Positions 25,428 to 51,389 of a DNA stretch of 64,000 nucleotides are shown one piece after another. Origin of the DNA: Dermatophagoides farinae (lineage: Eukaryota > Arthropoda > Arachnida > Sarcoptiformes > Pyroglyphidae); contig NC_134686.1 of assembly GCF_024713945.1 (NCBI RefSeq), positions 1,512,001-1,576,000 of the forward strand, given 5' to 3'. Position 1 is the first letter of the stretch, and the number at the start of each line of letters is the position of its first letter. The notes under the pieces were generated by a model. It ran no database searches, was not told the DNA's origin, and worked only from the letters and a program-made list of their open reading frames with translations. The position numbers were made by a program, and so were the translations under genes.

Positions 25428-28400
25428 GTAAGTGTATTTTCACCATATTCTAGACGATTCTATGAGTTTAATTTTTGTTTTATTTTGTTCAAATATTATT
25501 ATATAATATAAACAGTGATGATAATGAACATTCATCGACACCGCCAACGCCCAATATTTCGGAAAATGGTAATATAAACAAAAAAAAACAAAATAAATAA
25601 ATACATAATAATGATATATAATCAATATTAATTTATCTCGTCATAGGTACACAATATTATCTACGTATAGAAAAACCATTGACAAATTTAACAAAAGAAA
25701 GTGGTGAAGATGTACGATTAAAATGTGAATTCAGTGGTATACCAAAATTAAAAGTATTTTGGTATAAAAATGAAGCACCAATTGAAATTGAACCAGGAAA
25801 GATAACAACAAAATCAACAAAAATACAACCAGATCGTATTAGGGCACGTTTGGTTATCAAACGTTTGGATACACATGATTCTGGCTATTATAAATGTGAA
25901 GCCACCAATGGTTTTATGACTATTGAATCGACCGGTGTATTAGTGGTGAAAACTTGTAAGTTTTTTTTTTACCTGAAAAAAATTGATTTTTTCTCTGATT
26001 TTTTTTCTTCCACACACACAAAAAAAATATAGATATTGTACATCAAAATAATAATCTGAATAATCCACAATTTTCATCATCCGATTCGATTATGGAATCC
26101 AGGTAGGTGTTGGTGGTGGTTAATGAATTTATGATTGATTGATTGCGCCTGCAATGACAATTAAGCAATAATTAAAGAATTTTAATAATAATAAAAATTC
26201 TGAATATTTAAAAACATAGATTAAAGTATATTAAGATTCAATGATTCTTTTCTTCTTAAACACGATGAACACTCTTCATTAGAATCACTCTCTTTATAGC
26301 CATGATTTTTTTTTCATATAAAAATTGTATTCGATAATGTTGTTAATTGCGTACTTTTCTAATCAATGATCTGAAAAGCTCAATGATAATCAAGATTAAA
26401 TAAAAACAGAATGCAAACACAGTTTCAAATATATCCAAAAAATTATCAATATGCCACCATGGTTTTTGTTCATAATTTTTTATAATCAATTTTTTATCAT
26501 TGCCATCAGCATTATTATCTGTTGTTGTTGTTGTTGTGTTGTTGGTGGATCTTCAATTTGACTTATGATAACAAAATCATCATATTCATCACTAAAATCC
26601 ATTTCTTGGTAACGTTCAATATAACTTTTTTGTTGATCATTATTGTTTGTATCATTCAAATCATCATTCATTTCAATTGCAATATGATCAGCATCATTAG
26701 CAGCATTAGCAATAGCATTAACAGCAGTATCAGTAGTAGTAGAGTAGCAGCAACATCGGCATCAGTATCGACAATACTACGAGAAGCCATAATTGCACGT
26801 CCTTGAATAATAGTTTCAATATCACATTCACCATATTGATTAGTTAATTGTTCCATTAATTCATCATCAACTTCAATTTCATATTCAACATTAACATTGG
26901 TTACAGTTGTTGTAATAATACAATCATCATCAGTGGTTTCAACTGTTTTGCTTTTGGTGACAGAGACGGATTTTTTTTCTTCCATTATGATCGATTGATT
27001 GATTGGTTGATTGATTGATATGATTCAATAGTTTTTTATTATATAAGTAGAGAGTGAGTTTTTTTTTTGATGTGATAAGCAAAGTTGATTCCAAGTTGTG
27101 AACATTTTACACAATTTTATATGATTTATTCCTAAATTGTTTACATGTCAACAGTTTAAATTCATTGGATTAACATGAATGAACAAAATTGGATTAATGA
27201 ACAATTTGAATCAAGAATATATTGTGAAATTATCGATTCTTATTGAATATTCTAATTGCCAAACATAATTATATATTGTTAACAGCTGTTATTCATTGGA
27301 ATTTTCTGTTTTTTTTTTTTGGCTACTTTTTTCCATCTTTTTCTCGTTGACCTGATTAGGAAAAAAAAATTATGGTAACCCTAAATTAATTTTGTTCCAA
27401 CAATCTTCGATGTTAAATTGGTTGCACAGAAAAATTAATTTCTTTCTCTCTCTCTCTCTCTCTTTTTTTACTGGATGATAATTGATAATTTTATACGGAA
27501 TTTATGTATATGGAAATGATGGCTGGACACATCTTTCTTTGAGTTGTTTAATCCGATTTTGTTTTTTTGCTGCCTGTTCTGCCTTATCTTTTTTCTTTAT
27601 CGACCAAAAGAAAAAAAAATTTTTCTATTTTTTTTTTCGTAAACACTTAATAAGTAAGCCTTTAGGGCTTTTTAATCCACTCATTTTATCCGGCTATGTG
27701 GATATCATCTTTTTTTTTCTCGATGTAAGAAAATGACTTTTTTTTCTCATCATATCATCTTGTTCGGCTAATTTATTTTGATGATGGAACCGAGATTATA
27801 TGATAATCCCAAAAAAAAAAAAAAAAATTTACATCTTGGTTTTAACTTATATCAAATGCATGTGTAAATTTGTCGATCGAAAACAAACAAAAAACAAACA
27901 CATATCGACCGGAAATCGATCGATGATTATATAAATCCAATAAATAGTGTTGTATTGATTGATTGATCGATCAAATTGTTTTTAATAGATAGAGATAATC
28001 ACAATTTGATTGGATCAATATGAAACAAAAAAAAACCGCACATAAAACACAATTTTTGACACACTTTTTTTCAATGAACAATAATGATGATGTCTTGATG
28101 TTGTTTTAATTAATTAATTAATTAATTAATTGATTGAATTTTTAATTGAATTTTTTTTCAAAATTTATTGGCAAAAAAAATCACCAGAACCAGAATTGAT
28201 AGTGCGAAGAAAAGATGTTTAATGCCAAATTCTTGTTGCCAAAACACATGGATATTTTATAACAAAATGTTTTCAGCAGCTCTACATATTAGTTTAGGTT
28301 AATATATGGTGTACAATTAATTTTCTCAATCATTTTTGGTCTTTTATTTTGGTTTTTTTTTTCGTTTAGTTCTTTTTGGTTTCCTTTTCCCATTTTTGTT

Positions 28401-30482
28401 TCATTATTTTCAAGCTGTCCATATAATAAATTTTCTACGATTAGATCCTTATTATTGTTGTTTGTTGTAGAGTTTTTGGTTTGTTTGTGTCTGTGGATAA
28501 TTAAAATAGGTTTTTTTTATGTCTGTATAATGGTGGTGGTGGTGGTGATGTATTCGTTAGCTTTGACAACAAATGACGCCCGACCCAGAAAAACAGTACC
28601 GATTCATTTGGGATTTTACTACTATCCACCATCATTTTTTTTTCTTATATTTTCTTCAACATACACACCCGAACATTGAGCAATTCATTTTACTTTTTTT
28701 TTTTTTTTGGTTCTTTCTTGAAAATCAATCAGCAACATTTTTTTTTCGCTCTCGTCTTAATTCTGATTCAATTTTGTCCATTCAAATTGGTGACAATTGA
28801 AAATGGAAAATTTTCATCTTACAGCAAACAAAAAAAAACGGCACATAGAAATACATCATGGATTCTATTTTTGTCCATTTGAAATTCGTTGAATTCTATT
28901 AGATTTTCAATCACATGATGATGATGGTGGAAATTTTTTTTTTTTGACGCCCATTGTCAGCCTTGTTCCAAATTTTTATTTTTCATGAATTCATTTTAAA
29001 GATGATTTTTTAAAGTTGAAAATTTTTTTTTTGTTTCAGAAAAGAAGAAAAATGATTTCTCCGGAAATAACTTTATCTAACCATTGATCATTGACGATGA
29101 AGATGATGATGATGGTGATGGAATCTAATAATTGATACGATACGAATCGATGATTATTTCAATTTCGTTTTTCTCTTTCTCTTTCTCTTTTTCATTTTGA
29201 TAGAAAAAAAAAAAATAACAGAAACAGAATGAGAACAAAAAAAATGGCAATTTATTCTGATGAACAGCAAAAAAAAAACGAATGAAATGCACTACAAAAA
29301 TGGATGAAAAGTCAAATTGGGTGTTATTTTGAAATGATTTTCTTGATGATGATGATGATTATTATGGTAGTTATTAACACTTTTCTTTCCTTTTGAAGAA
29401 TTCGATTTGTTGCTGCTGTTGTTCATAATTGACTTAATGATAACGTTTTGTTCAATAATAATTTTTTTTTTGCCTTTTTCGTTTCTAGATCATGTAATTT
29501 ATTATCCTGTCTATCTAGCTATCATGATTATTATCATTTCTCAAAGATCATCATCATCATTAAAAGTGTTTTGTAAATGTAGAGTTATTTTTTATACACA
29601 CACACACACAATTCTACAATTTATGATTGTCAATTGATCGAATCGATTTATCGTGTTGTGTACGTCTGTGTGTCTGTGTGTTTGTGTGTGCGTTTGTAGA
29701 TTTTATTTCTTCAGTTTTATGAGTCGATTTCTTTTTTTTATTTAGTTTCATTGATTGATTATTCAAAATATCATTACATTCACCCATTCAATGATGTGAT
29801 TTTTTTTCTCTGTGTGTGTGTGCCTATTTTTTTTTTGGTCCATTGTCCATTTTTGATTGTAAAATAAAATTTACATTTCATTCATTCAGGATTGTGACAT
29901 GAATACATGAATGCGGTGGTCAATTTGGTTCGATTTTCAATTAAATGTTTAATGAAAATTTATTTATCGAACGAATTGACTATTTGAGTTGGATTTTTAG
30001 TTTTTCAATTTTGAAATTTGATTAAAAAAAACAGACATTTGAATATCAATCCATTTACATTTGTGTGTTTCATTGATTTTCAGTATTTGTTGTTGTTGTT
30101 GTTGTGTTGTTGTCATCTGGATTCCAAGGAAAAAGAGAATTTTTTTTTTTTTGGTTGCTCGGATTCCTATTCTTTTGATGATCCACCACCACCACCACCA
30201 CCATTCATATGATGGTGGTGGTGGTGATTTGCCCATGGATTTTTTTTTTACTACGATACGATTCATTTAATACACACACACACACAGAATGAAGAAGAAT
30301 CATAATAATAAAATGAAAACGGTATGAATTTTTTTTTTGTTCTGTGTGTATTCTGTATTGAAACCATGCATGTACGATGATGATGGAAAATGAACTTTTT
30401 TTTCATTCATTCATTCATTCACTTACAATTGAAACAACTGAAATGGAATGTCGTTTTTTTTTCTTTCTCTCTTCTTTGGCTT

Positions 30483-44921: not shown

Positions 44922-47900
44922 CTAAACAACAGACATACACAAATATAATATGTCGCAAAAAAATGCCATAAAATTCTGGTCATGTTTTCTCATTGTTTTG
45001 GACCATGACTTGATGATGATGATGATGATGTCATGATCGTGATGATGATGGTGATGGCAACTCATTTACACTTTTGCTGTAATATTCATTTAGCTTTTTC
45101 ATCATCATCATCATTGTCGTCGTTATTTGCGAAAAAAAAAACTTTTTATATTGCAATGGCAATTTTCATTGAATCTTTGATGATGATGATGATGGCGATG
45201 ATGGCGATCCTCCCTTAGCTATCAATTGTTTGGTTAAATTGTTACCCATTTTTTTTCTCTGTCTGGTTGTTGTTGTTGTTGTTCTCTTGTTGTGTTTTAG
45301 ATCGATTCATCTGTTTGGTGTTGGTGTTATGTCATCATCGTCACTTATTAACATATCGATGTCGTAAAAGTTTTTTTTCTTTGTTTTGTTTTGTTTGGTT
45401 TGGTTTGTCACACAAAAACATACGAGTTATAAAACATTACAAAAAAAAAAAAAAAAAATATTACTATGGGGCTAAAATGACATCTCGCTTCAGCTAAACT
45501 GATCCAAAGTCATTCGAATTTCGAATCTTTCCAATCAATCGTTTCATAGTATCATTGTTTGTATGTTTGAATGGCCAATAAAATCAATATAATATATCAG
45601 TCTCTCGTTCTTGCCACGTTTTTATTCGATGAATGAACGGATTAAATACACGCACACACACAACGCACAAAAAAAATGACCATGTGTGTTAATGATACTC
45701 ATTTATCGGAGAGAGAGAAACTGAAAATCAAAAGAAAATGTCATTACTTTAATTGGTTTTCATTTTCGATCCAAATGAAAAAAAAGAACAGGAAAAAACC
45801 GATGATGAAATTTGCTTTAACATCTTCTTCTTCTTCATGTTTTTTTTTGTCTCCATTTGATTAAATTTTCTTGAATTGATTTTCGATTTCTTCATCCTAC
45901 TTCCCCTAATCATGTAGCAAGAACAGAAAATATTTACACTGTAAATCCCTTATTTTTTTTCAACAAATTGTCAAAAAAAAAAAATTCCATATCTCTGCGT
46001 TGGCTCTCTGCGTTATTCTTCTTCTTCTTTTTTTGCGATTGGGATTTATCATTATTTTTGTTGTTGTTGTTGTTGTTGTTGATTTGATTTACATTTCAAA
46101 ATTCTTGACTCAATTTTAGATGATCAATTCATTTGACAGAAAAAAAGAGACAATTTTTTTTTTACTTAAATTCAATTCACTTTTCACTGTGGATTTGATC
46201 CAGTGAATGAATGAATGAATGAAAAAATGTCCACCAATACACTAGCTTAACACAGAATAAATGTGTGTGTGTGTTCAGTAATTCAATCAACGTTATGTTA
46301 CTAAAATCGATCCAAAAATCGACACAATTTTACGAACCATTTGTGTAAAATGTGAAAAAAAAGATAGAACCAAATGAAAAATGGCCAATACTCAACACCA
46401 ACCAACCAAACTTTGGTTGGCTTTGATTTTATTTTTTTTTTTATTTCTTTTCAAAATTCTTGTCCCATTGTCATTGTAAAACTTTTTATCGTCCGTCGTC
46501 GTTTTTGTTGTTGTTGTTTGTTGTTGTTGTTGTTGTAATTTTCATCAATCGTGGACAATAAAACAAATTCTTTTCACTTTTTTTTCAATTTTCAATTTTT
46601 TTTTATTGAGACAAATTATTAAATTTATTATTTTCTACACAATTTTTGGAAAAATCGATCGATCGAACGATCGAACGAATTTTTTTTTTCATTTTATGTT
46701 TGTTTTGTTAATCCAAAAAATCAGATGTCAGCACTTGCATTCGGAAAAACGTTCCATTCATGTTTCAATTTCATTCACACTAGACAACTCTACCCGGACA
46801 ATAAATGATTCAATGGACATCGCCCTTTACTATTTGTGTTTGCGCGCAATGATCCAAAATAATACACACACATATACACATAACGCCCGGATTTTTTTTT
46901 ACAACTCATGCGTCATGTCCTCCCTCAATTGCAATTGTATTCTTCTTTTGTTAAGAGCTTGGTTATATTAAATAAAAAATGAACATCATTTTCACCATTG
47001 TTGTAAAGAAATCCTAATGACAGGAAATTCTTAACATTGAAATTTTGGCTTCCAGTTTGTGTGTGTGTGTGTGTGTGTGTAATAATCTGTTCTTTTCAAC
47101 ATGGCGATTTTTAAACAATTGATACATTTCATCATTTTGTTTACATTATTCACTGTGGTTCATTTTAATAGTATAATGGCTTTTGAACAAATAAATTCTC
47201 CATTGTTTAATATGGAAAATTTCAATATTTCTACCATAAAATTGCTCAACAATATGACACAATTATTGGCGCTTTCGCATAATAATAGGTTTTTTTATAT
47301 TGAGTTCACTTGATTAATTTTGCTAATTTTTTTTTGTTCCAATTGAACAGTTTTGCCATTCCAAATATTGATTCAAAAGAATTATTATTAGATGGTCCAG
47401 GCATGTGTCAACCATATCGTGGTTCAGCTTGTTCACAATTTCTACAGAATCGTACCATTTATGTTCGTAATGAATATTGGCAACAAATTATGGATAATAA
47501 ATTATTGGCTGCATTCAATGTTATTGTACATTCACCAGATGTATCATTACAATGTCATCGTTATGCAATATCATCGCTTTGTTTTCATGTATTTTCATTA
47601 TGTGATGATACATTTCCACATCCACATCCACGAAAGGTATGTTATTAATTAATTAATTTGAATTCAATTGAAATAAGAAAAAACAATTATTTCCAGGTCT
47701 GTCGTGATGAATGTGAAATGTTGGAGAATAATATTTGTCATATGGAATATGCAATCGCCAAAAAACATCCATTGATTGGTCATCAGGATATTTTACCAGA
47801 ATGTGATGATCTACCATCGATTGGTTCTCATGAAGGTCAACGTTGTGTACGTCTTGGTATTCCGAATACAATGCCAGTAGCTCATGGTTTGTAATTTGTT

Positions 47901-50840: not shown

Positions 50841-51254
50841 TCAATCGGTGGCTATAAATTTTTTCGCTTGTTCAATAATCTGTTCGATATAATTTTGTTT
50901 GTTTTTAACATATACTTCATATGCTAATAAATTAGCTGGATCATAGATATTCGGTTCGTTTAATAAATCTTGTATGCCAATCAGAATTTCACGTATGGTT
51001 GTTGATGGACGCCAACCATTTTCTGGATTCAATATGGAAAGACAAACTTGACCATCCAACCAAATGTTTGGATGAAATATTGGTGGATCAAATTGACAAA
51101 CGGGTGGTTTCAATGGATAACCAGTATTGAATTTAATTTTCAATTTAAATTTTCCATTTTCCCATGGTGTATCCGGTTTTCCTGGTATCGAACAATTCCA
51201 TATCATTAGATTAAGACTTCCATCGGGATTTTTAACAGGTTTAGCTTCAAAACC
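50841..51254 (-). CDS. Ubc9: Ubc9 exon 2
   Basis: Starts after acceptor gttaaaag with GFEAKPVKNPDG and runs to the stop after KKFIATD. Holds the whole catalytic core including Cys93. Confidence 0.93.
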   Translation of the reverse strand, partial: GFEAKPVKNPDGSLNLMIWNCSIPGKPDTPWENGKFKLKIKFNTGYPLKPPVCQFDPPIFHPNIWLDGQVCLSILNPENGWRPSTTIREILIGIQDLLNEPNIYDPANLLAYEVYVKNKQNYIEQIIEQAKKFIATD

Positions 51255-51389
51255 CTTTTAACAATGAAATTTGAAATTGGAAATTAAAAAAAATTAAAAA
51301 TTGTTCATATTATTTTTATTTACGTATGGATGATCCTTGCGCCATGATTTTCGTTCTTCAGACAATCTTGTCATTGCTAATTGATCCAT
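50841..51389 (-). CDS. Ubc9: SUMO-conjugating enzyme Ubc9 (gene span)
   Basis: E2 enzyme that takes SUMO from the E1 and passes it to lysines of target proteins, in nucleus and cytoplasm. Two exons, 51324-51389 and 50841-51254, joined in frame across a 69-bp intron to give 159 residues (human UBC9 is 158). The N-terminal helix keeps RLSEERKSWRKDHP, whose Arg13, Arg17 and His20 bind SUMO non-covalently. The HPN motif is at residues 83-85 and the catalytic Cys93 is in QVCLSIL. LLNEPN and DPA are conserved. It differs from usual Ubc9 at several substrate-contact positions (Trp87, Glu100, Asn101, Tyr126). It could be a paralogue rather than the only Ubc9, but the N-terminal helix and the spacing of the loop after the Cys exclude ordinary ubiquitin E2s. 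Confidence 0.92.
51324..51389 (-). CDS. Ubc9: Ubc9 exon 1
   Basis: Start ATG at 51389. Twenty-two codons for the N-terminal helix, ending DHPY at donor gtaaat. The in-frame sequence further upstream is AT-rich and not Ubc9-like, so this ATG is the natural start. Confidence 0.9.

Follow-up and report, generated by a model that had tools for sequence, protein, structure and literature searches.

A candidate gene pair for acidic proteins with a C-terminal membrane helix in Dermatophagoides farinae, one member antisense within a ROR-like receptor intron and interrupted by two frame breaks

Protein-coding genes housed in an intron of another gene and read in the opposite direction have a described example in Drosophila 2mit, which is placed in this way within tim2 (PMC3786989). 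The locus that we analyzed in the mite Dermatophagoides farinae is likened to it by arrangement, not by sequence, and differs from it in both host and product. The predicted mite protein calls for a second comparison. Atg8-binding motifs (LIR) take the form of a [WFY]xx[LIV] core placed after acidic residues, and FAM134B, which is a point of reference for such motifs at membranes, features reticulon-type hairpins rather than a tail anchor. By this definition, the membrane-bound LIR autophagy receptors of the FAM134B type (PMC8727931) and the mite protein are alike in being membrane proteins that carry [WFY]xx[LIV] after an acidic stretch; the likeness is one of motif description, and Atg8 binding by the mite protein is putative.

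Our overall reading of the locus, to which we assign a probability of about 0.5, is that it is a nested single-exon antisense gene broken at two points, paired with an intact gene on another contig (C8), and that its breaks are most likely consensus errors. Part of its interest is that such a gene may be overlooked or broken by automatic annotation, here in the genome of a major allergen source.

Host gene and three-frame coding signal

The window, by which we mean the whole stretch of 64,000 nucleotides that was analyzed, is C10:1512001-1576000 of a 62,435,336-base assembly in 22 contigs, C10 itself measuring 3,348,946 bases. Its plus strand carries immunoglobulin (Ig), Frizzled, kringle and tyrosine kinase parts of a single host gene, a combination that we take to be the domain set of ROR receptors, and the minus-strand gene (26343-26985) sits inside a large intron of this ROR-like receptor gene. 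The nested gene is flanked by the Ig exon of the receptor tyrosine kinase, recognized by Pfam (25649-25957, plus strand), and, on its far side, by a Frizzled-domain exon found by profile search (47406-47645, plus strand; the first 76 of 110 profile positions); the host may have further small exons between 26104 and 47400. A genome-wide DNA search with the nested gene returned no second DNA copy, making the locus single-copy in that search. Directly downstream of the host kinase gene, an exon of a ubiquitin-conjugating enzyme (PF00179), UBC9-like by eye, occupies 50841-51257 of the minus strand.

All-frame translation of the minus strand yields three overlapping open frames in order, 27024-26668 (with an ATG at 26985), 26761-26486 and 26552-26343, and none of them is interrupted by an internal stop codon. 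Codon usage was trained on 1869 codons from seven pieces, namely three from the host kinase, the neighboring ubiquitin-conjugating gene, the PSD13 proteasome subunit and two from the bicarbonate transporter locus. By this measure the first frame is preferred as far as about 26750, the second from there to about 26500 and the third afterwards; the weak point is the membrane helix (see below), where the codon score of the third frame is negative and, in some windows, slightly exceeded by that of another frame. We accordingly distinguish segment 1 in the first frame (26740-26985, minus strand), which begins at the ATG and has coding signal to about 26740 in a frame that stays open on to 26668; segment 2 in the second frame (26525-26739, minus strand), marked by its codon score and its resemblance to the C8 paralogue; and segment 3 in the third frame (26343-26530, minus strand), which also resembles the C8 paralogue and terminates at a stop codon. 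A best-path fit that is blind to repeats changes frame optimally at 26742 (2-bit range 26731-26745) and at 26521 (2-bit range 26513-26533), and these ranges become 26734-26745 and 26516-26539 once the C8 gene joins the codon training. The three-frame path scores 65.5, whereas the maximum among 540 overlapping 643-nt tiles, drawn from both strands of stretches taken as non-coding and, being overlapping, not independent of each other, is -2.3, so that 0 of 540 reach the score; the contrast is somewhat flattered, as the gene is bounded by its own start and stop, but is still large. An initial annotation of this DNA had described three minus-strand open segments using three frames in order, and both the translation and the codon score confirm that description.

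The C8 paralogue and shared flanking blocks

The same annotation had known of no homologue, a statement now superseded: the genome also contains an intact homologue, whose 287-residue open frame lies at C8:4385704-4386564 (within a 294-codon open frame). Genome search with segment 3 recovers it at E 4.8e-4, and with the C8 tail as query the nested gene is the sole other match, at E 7.2e-4, the two being mutual best non-self matches. Against C8, none of 2000 shuffles scored as high as segment 2 and none of 2000 as high as segment 3; the similarity of segment 1 to the C8 protein is not significant (320 of 2000 shuffles as high). The tail region of the two genes is 34% identical, and at E up to 1 neither the full C8 protein as genome query returned the nested gene nor segment 2 as genome query returned C8; the family relation appears to be a distant one. 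In the C8 gene, the parts that resemble segments 2 and 3 are colinear in a single frame, by which the second junction of the nested gene is directly supported; for the first junction, the evidence is the codon signal and the order of the segments, because segment 1 lacks significant C8 similarity. The single-exon model obtained by joining the three segments, as first proposed, is thus upheld at the second junction, with the flanking blocks (see below) framing the gene, and depends at the first on signal and order.

The residues kept in both proteins cluster in DFSD(D/E)YD, in EQ-x-x-WWHI before the C-terminal helix and in K-x-RN after it. These clusters and the common flanking blocks constitute the likeness between the paralogues; the C8 gene differs in its intact single frame, a longer middle part and a C-terminal extension. 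Codon-position differences between the two amount to 20, 18 and 22 in 50 segment 3 codons and to 8, 8 and 7 in 20 segment 2 codons, an evenness over 70 codons that shows no sign of strong purifying selection and would fit weak constraint. No relative was found in viral contigs with the C8 protein as query, nor in prokaryote genomes with the tail alignment. The surroundings of the C8 gene hold no other open frames of more than 105 residues within 10 kb (C8:4380001-4390000).

Outside the open frames, the two genes share three blocks of DNA. Upstream of the nested gene, DNA alignment and pattern search delimit a 26-nt block (27101-27126, minus strand) that differs from its C8 counterpart at one position and a 25-nt block with TATATAA (27021-27045, minus strand) that is identical in C8, the distance between the two blocks being 57 and 60 nt at the two genes. 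Downstream, an 18-nt block (26170-26187, minus strand; DNA alignment), also identical in C8, contains ATTAAA as a possible poly(A) signal. The 26-nt pattern with one position open and the 23-nt core of the 25-nt block each occur perfectly at only two places in the genome, the nested gene and the C8 gene. For the 26-nt pattern there is one further match at three mismatches and none for its reversed version, and for the 23-nt pattern there are 16 further matches with two or three mismatches versus one for the reversed pattern, an unexplained excess. Two of the 16 imperfect-match loci (L020 and L024) have an ATG-opened frame of at least 60 residues within 150 nt, the frames being of 310 and 273 residues, and tblastn at E up to 1 revealed no relative of C8 or of the segments encoded at any of the 16. 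The best imperfect 23-nt match (L016) falls within the ORF of the PSD13 proteasome subunit. Judged from their sequences, the perfect flanking pairs are likeliest to represent a kept promoter and 3′ end. The upstream blocks (27021-27126; C8:4386571-4386679) are near-identical although the 70 compared codons diverge evenly at all positions, and part of the interest of this small gene pair lies in the keeping of upstream blocks beside protein parts that diverge alike at all codon positions. DNA duplication fits the pair better than retrocopying, given that each gene is a single open stretch and that the two have upstream sequence in common; a retrocopy (processed pseudogene) was rejected as the source of the nested gene on these same grounds, the C8 gene also being one open frame and the upstream blocks being common to both.

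Segment 3 has a second resemblance, to a bicarbonate transporter ORF on C4 (PF00955; locus L004); the genome-search E is 0.0101 and the local score 78 (C8: 87), and 0 of 5000 block shuffles score as high against the transporter, as is likewise the case against C8. This resemblance pairs 26346-26470 of the window with L004 1498-1620 at 45% over 42 aligned positions. The C8 tail shows no resemblance to the transporter (460 of 5000 block shuffles as high), and no counterpart of segment 2 was found at the transporter locus. Because the transporter helix matches nearly as well, segment 3 by itself is weak proof of the pair, which is carried by segment 2 and the flanks. Bicarbonate transporters are multi-helix proteins, and we take the likeness, without proof, to be probably one between helices, the alternative being capture of transporter sequence. 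The genome matches of segment 3 other than C8 (L004, the transporter, to L008) range from E 0.01 to 0.5. When C8 and each of the segments were compared by tblastn with 24 loci (L004-L008, L011, L012, L016-L031 and L034), the transporter was the sole match at E up to 1.

Predicted product and its motifs

The segments are of low complexity and acid-rich ahead of a predicted C-terminal transmembrane helix (26376-26432, minus strand), which has a Kyte-Doolittle mean of 2.35 over 19 residues and ends 10 residues before the end of the protein; elsewhere, hydropathy reaches a maximum of 0.66 in segment 1 before the break and 0.42 in segment 2. The tail-anchor helix noticed at the end of the gene in the initial annotation is therefore borne out by these values. 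The C8 protein has, by hydropathy, a stronger C-terminal helix 25 residues before its end. With a single hydrophobic helix near the C-terminus and no N-terminal signal, the nested gene product would belong to the tail-anchored class, as a prediction based on hydropathy.

Two conserved elements precede the helix in the alignment: an acidic motif, DFSDEYDDFVII (26564-26599, minus strand), the counterpart of DFSDDYDVYVPL in C8, which includes a LIR-like [WFY]xx[LIV] core, and a WWHI motif directly before the membrane helix (26448-26459, minus strand), conserved in C8. In the alignment, the aromatic-x-x-aliphatic cores of the two proteins (FVII and YVPL) coincide, each following the acids. Of 5000 shuffled versions of segment 2, 1148 contain a LIR-like pattern by chance, and the autophagy (Atg8-binding) reading of the acidic motif is a guess, correct in perhaps one case in five. 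The product, whose expression, topology and function we infer, as we do the cause of the breaks, would be an acidic low-complexity protein with one C-terminal helix in the membrane, most likely facing the cytosol. As a working guess, the acidic motif before the membrane (DFSD-x-YD-x-aromatic-V-x-aliphatic) might dock a partner, perhaps a protein of the Atg8 type, and recruit it to the membrane.

Pfam searches gave only sub-threshold matches, to Viral_FcR (E 0.0015; 18.9 bits vs. a cut-off of 27) and Importin_rep_3 (0.028) for segment 1 and to DUF7020 (0.0073) and HEXIM (0.033) for segment 2, with none for segment 3 and, for the C8 protein, two sub-threshold matches and no family above the cut-off. 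The PDB sequence matches were set aside as noise (five for segment 1, the best being LotA at E 0.31; one for segment 2, otoferlin at E 1.5; none for segment 3), and a BH3-like motif considered by eye in segment 1 was dropped for its misfitting spacing.

Frame breaks and their possible causes

Four triplet runs of at least 9 nt cover 7.5% of the 643 nt of the gene, and two of them (26732-26742 and 26520-26537) overlap the two switch ranges; two breaks placed at random would both land in such runs with a probability of about 0.006. The run at the first switch (26732-26742) lies within the range 26731-26745, and the second switch (range 26513-26533) falls at a phase-shifted triplet array (26520-26544), this break being, like an array at 30087-30113 in the same host intron, among the seven phase-shifted neighboring pairs of the 509 triplet runs of at least 8 nt that the window holds. 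The earlier placement of the breaks in triplet repeats holds to the extent that both runs are overlapped; for the first break it is most likely correct, the run being short and the position known to about 15 nt. Slippage within a triplet run shifts the sequence by three bases and preserves the frame, and the proposal that the gene tolerates repeat slippage fits poorly for this reason.

Most likely, as its sequence suggests, the locus is a real gene and belongs to a pair whose products are acidic, of low complexity and furnished with a C-terminal helix. It would be a genuine single-exon coding gene, antisense in the intron of the ROR-like receptor gene, and would form a two-gene family with the intact C8 gene. 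The odds are not altered by the transporter likeness, the excess of inexact matches to the promoter pattern or the low codon signal of the helix, since none of these affects segment 2 or the perfectly matching flanks. That the region is open by chance, in an intron rich in repeats, is barely credible: the low complexity of the segments, the lack of a Pfam family above cut-off, the dissimilarity of segment 1 to C8 and the likeness of the segment 3 tail to a transporter helix would all agree with it, but no control tile reaches the score of the gene, and the C8 paralogue and the shared flanking blocks speak against it as well. An ordinary spliced gene with small introns behind the frame changes is very improbable too. 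Frame-keeping GT-AG pairs exist, but the best combined scores are 0.2 (segment 1 to 2) and -7.7 (2 to 3), the best candidates would excise stretches with coding signal or paralogue similarity, and the C8 paralogue is one open frame; the intron scores are themselves weak evidence, as two of three ROR introns placed by eye also have poor acceptors (-2.4 and -6.8). It is likewise unlikely, if less strongly so, that the breaks are genuine and that the gene copes with them, a product arising by ribosomal frameshifting or from the short frames. As assembled, the first frame enters a leucine-rich stretch (26668-26745, minus strand) and stops three residues after it, which would allow a 105-residue tail-anchored protein with its own C-terminal helix, and the hydropathy of this stretch, 3.51 over 19 residues and three residues before the end, is in keeping with such a product. 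However, shifted reading of ACT/GCT-type codons yields a leucine-rich stretch anyway, the first-frame codon score is negative there, and no slippery heptamer of known type was seen by eye. A programmed frameshift with a frame change conserved in relatives was not found, the one relative recovered (C8) being a single open frame. An elaboration that we regard as highly speculative is that the frame shift is real and of use: at the first run it would convert a linker rich in Thr and Ala into a leucine-rich helix plus stop, so that the locus could give short and long tail-anchored proteins between which changes of the run would switch.

The two remaining causes are consensus errors and real lesions. 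We slightly favor the former, at about even odds, such that the two frame switches, each at a triplet run, would be consensus errors of a long-read assembly. The matching published D. farinae assembly is a merger of PacBio-subread assemblies from three assemblers that was corrected on Illumina data with NextPolish and Pilon and is reported to have a consensus quality of QV 36.1 (PMC11074847). At that quality, about 0.16 errors are expected in 643 nt, and the probability of two or more, under a uniform rate, is about 0.01. Assembly error is favored because both breaks are at runs amounting to so small a part of the gene, because none of the three frames contains a stop and because segment 3, past both breaks, is still open and paralogue-like; it is disfavored because two or more errors are that improbable and because one-base-short CAA arrays are rare (see below). 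If the breaks are errors, they show that triplet runs call for caution in long-read assemblies that have been polished. The principal rival, which we hold to be possible while giving it less than even odds, is a recent pseudogene in which both one-base losses are real in the mite strain and the function is carried by the C8 copy; it would be a case of very young gene loss. This is consistent with the presence of a one-base-short array elsewhere in the same host intron (see below), by which the lesion type exists outside the gene, with the Illumina correction that had been applied to the assembly, and with the even codon-position divergence from C8, as expected under little constraint. Such a pseudogene is harder to reconcile with three open frames free of stop codons, with a codon signal that persists past the first break and, the helix excepted, past the second, with the position of both breaks at runs that occupy just 7.5% of the gene, and with the preserved upstream blocks. 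As to the frequency of such lesions, the one kind of one-base-short CAA array searched for has 17 matches assembly-wide versus 7062 for the intact 22-nt CAA array, the latter count being inflated by overlapping matches and the true short-array fraction lying somewhat above 0.24%. Within the host intron, a one-base-short triplet array, identical in form to the second break, is found at 30087-30113.
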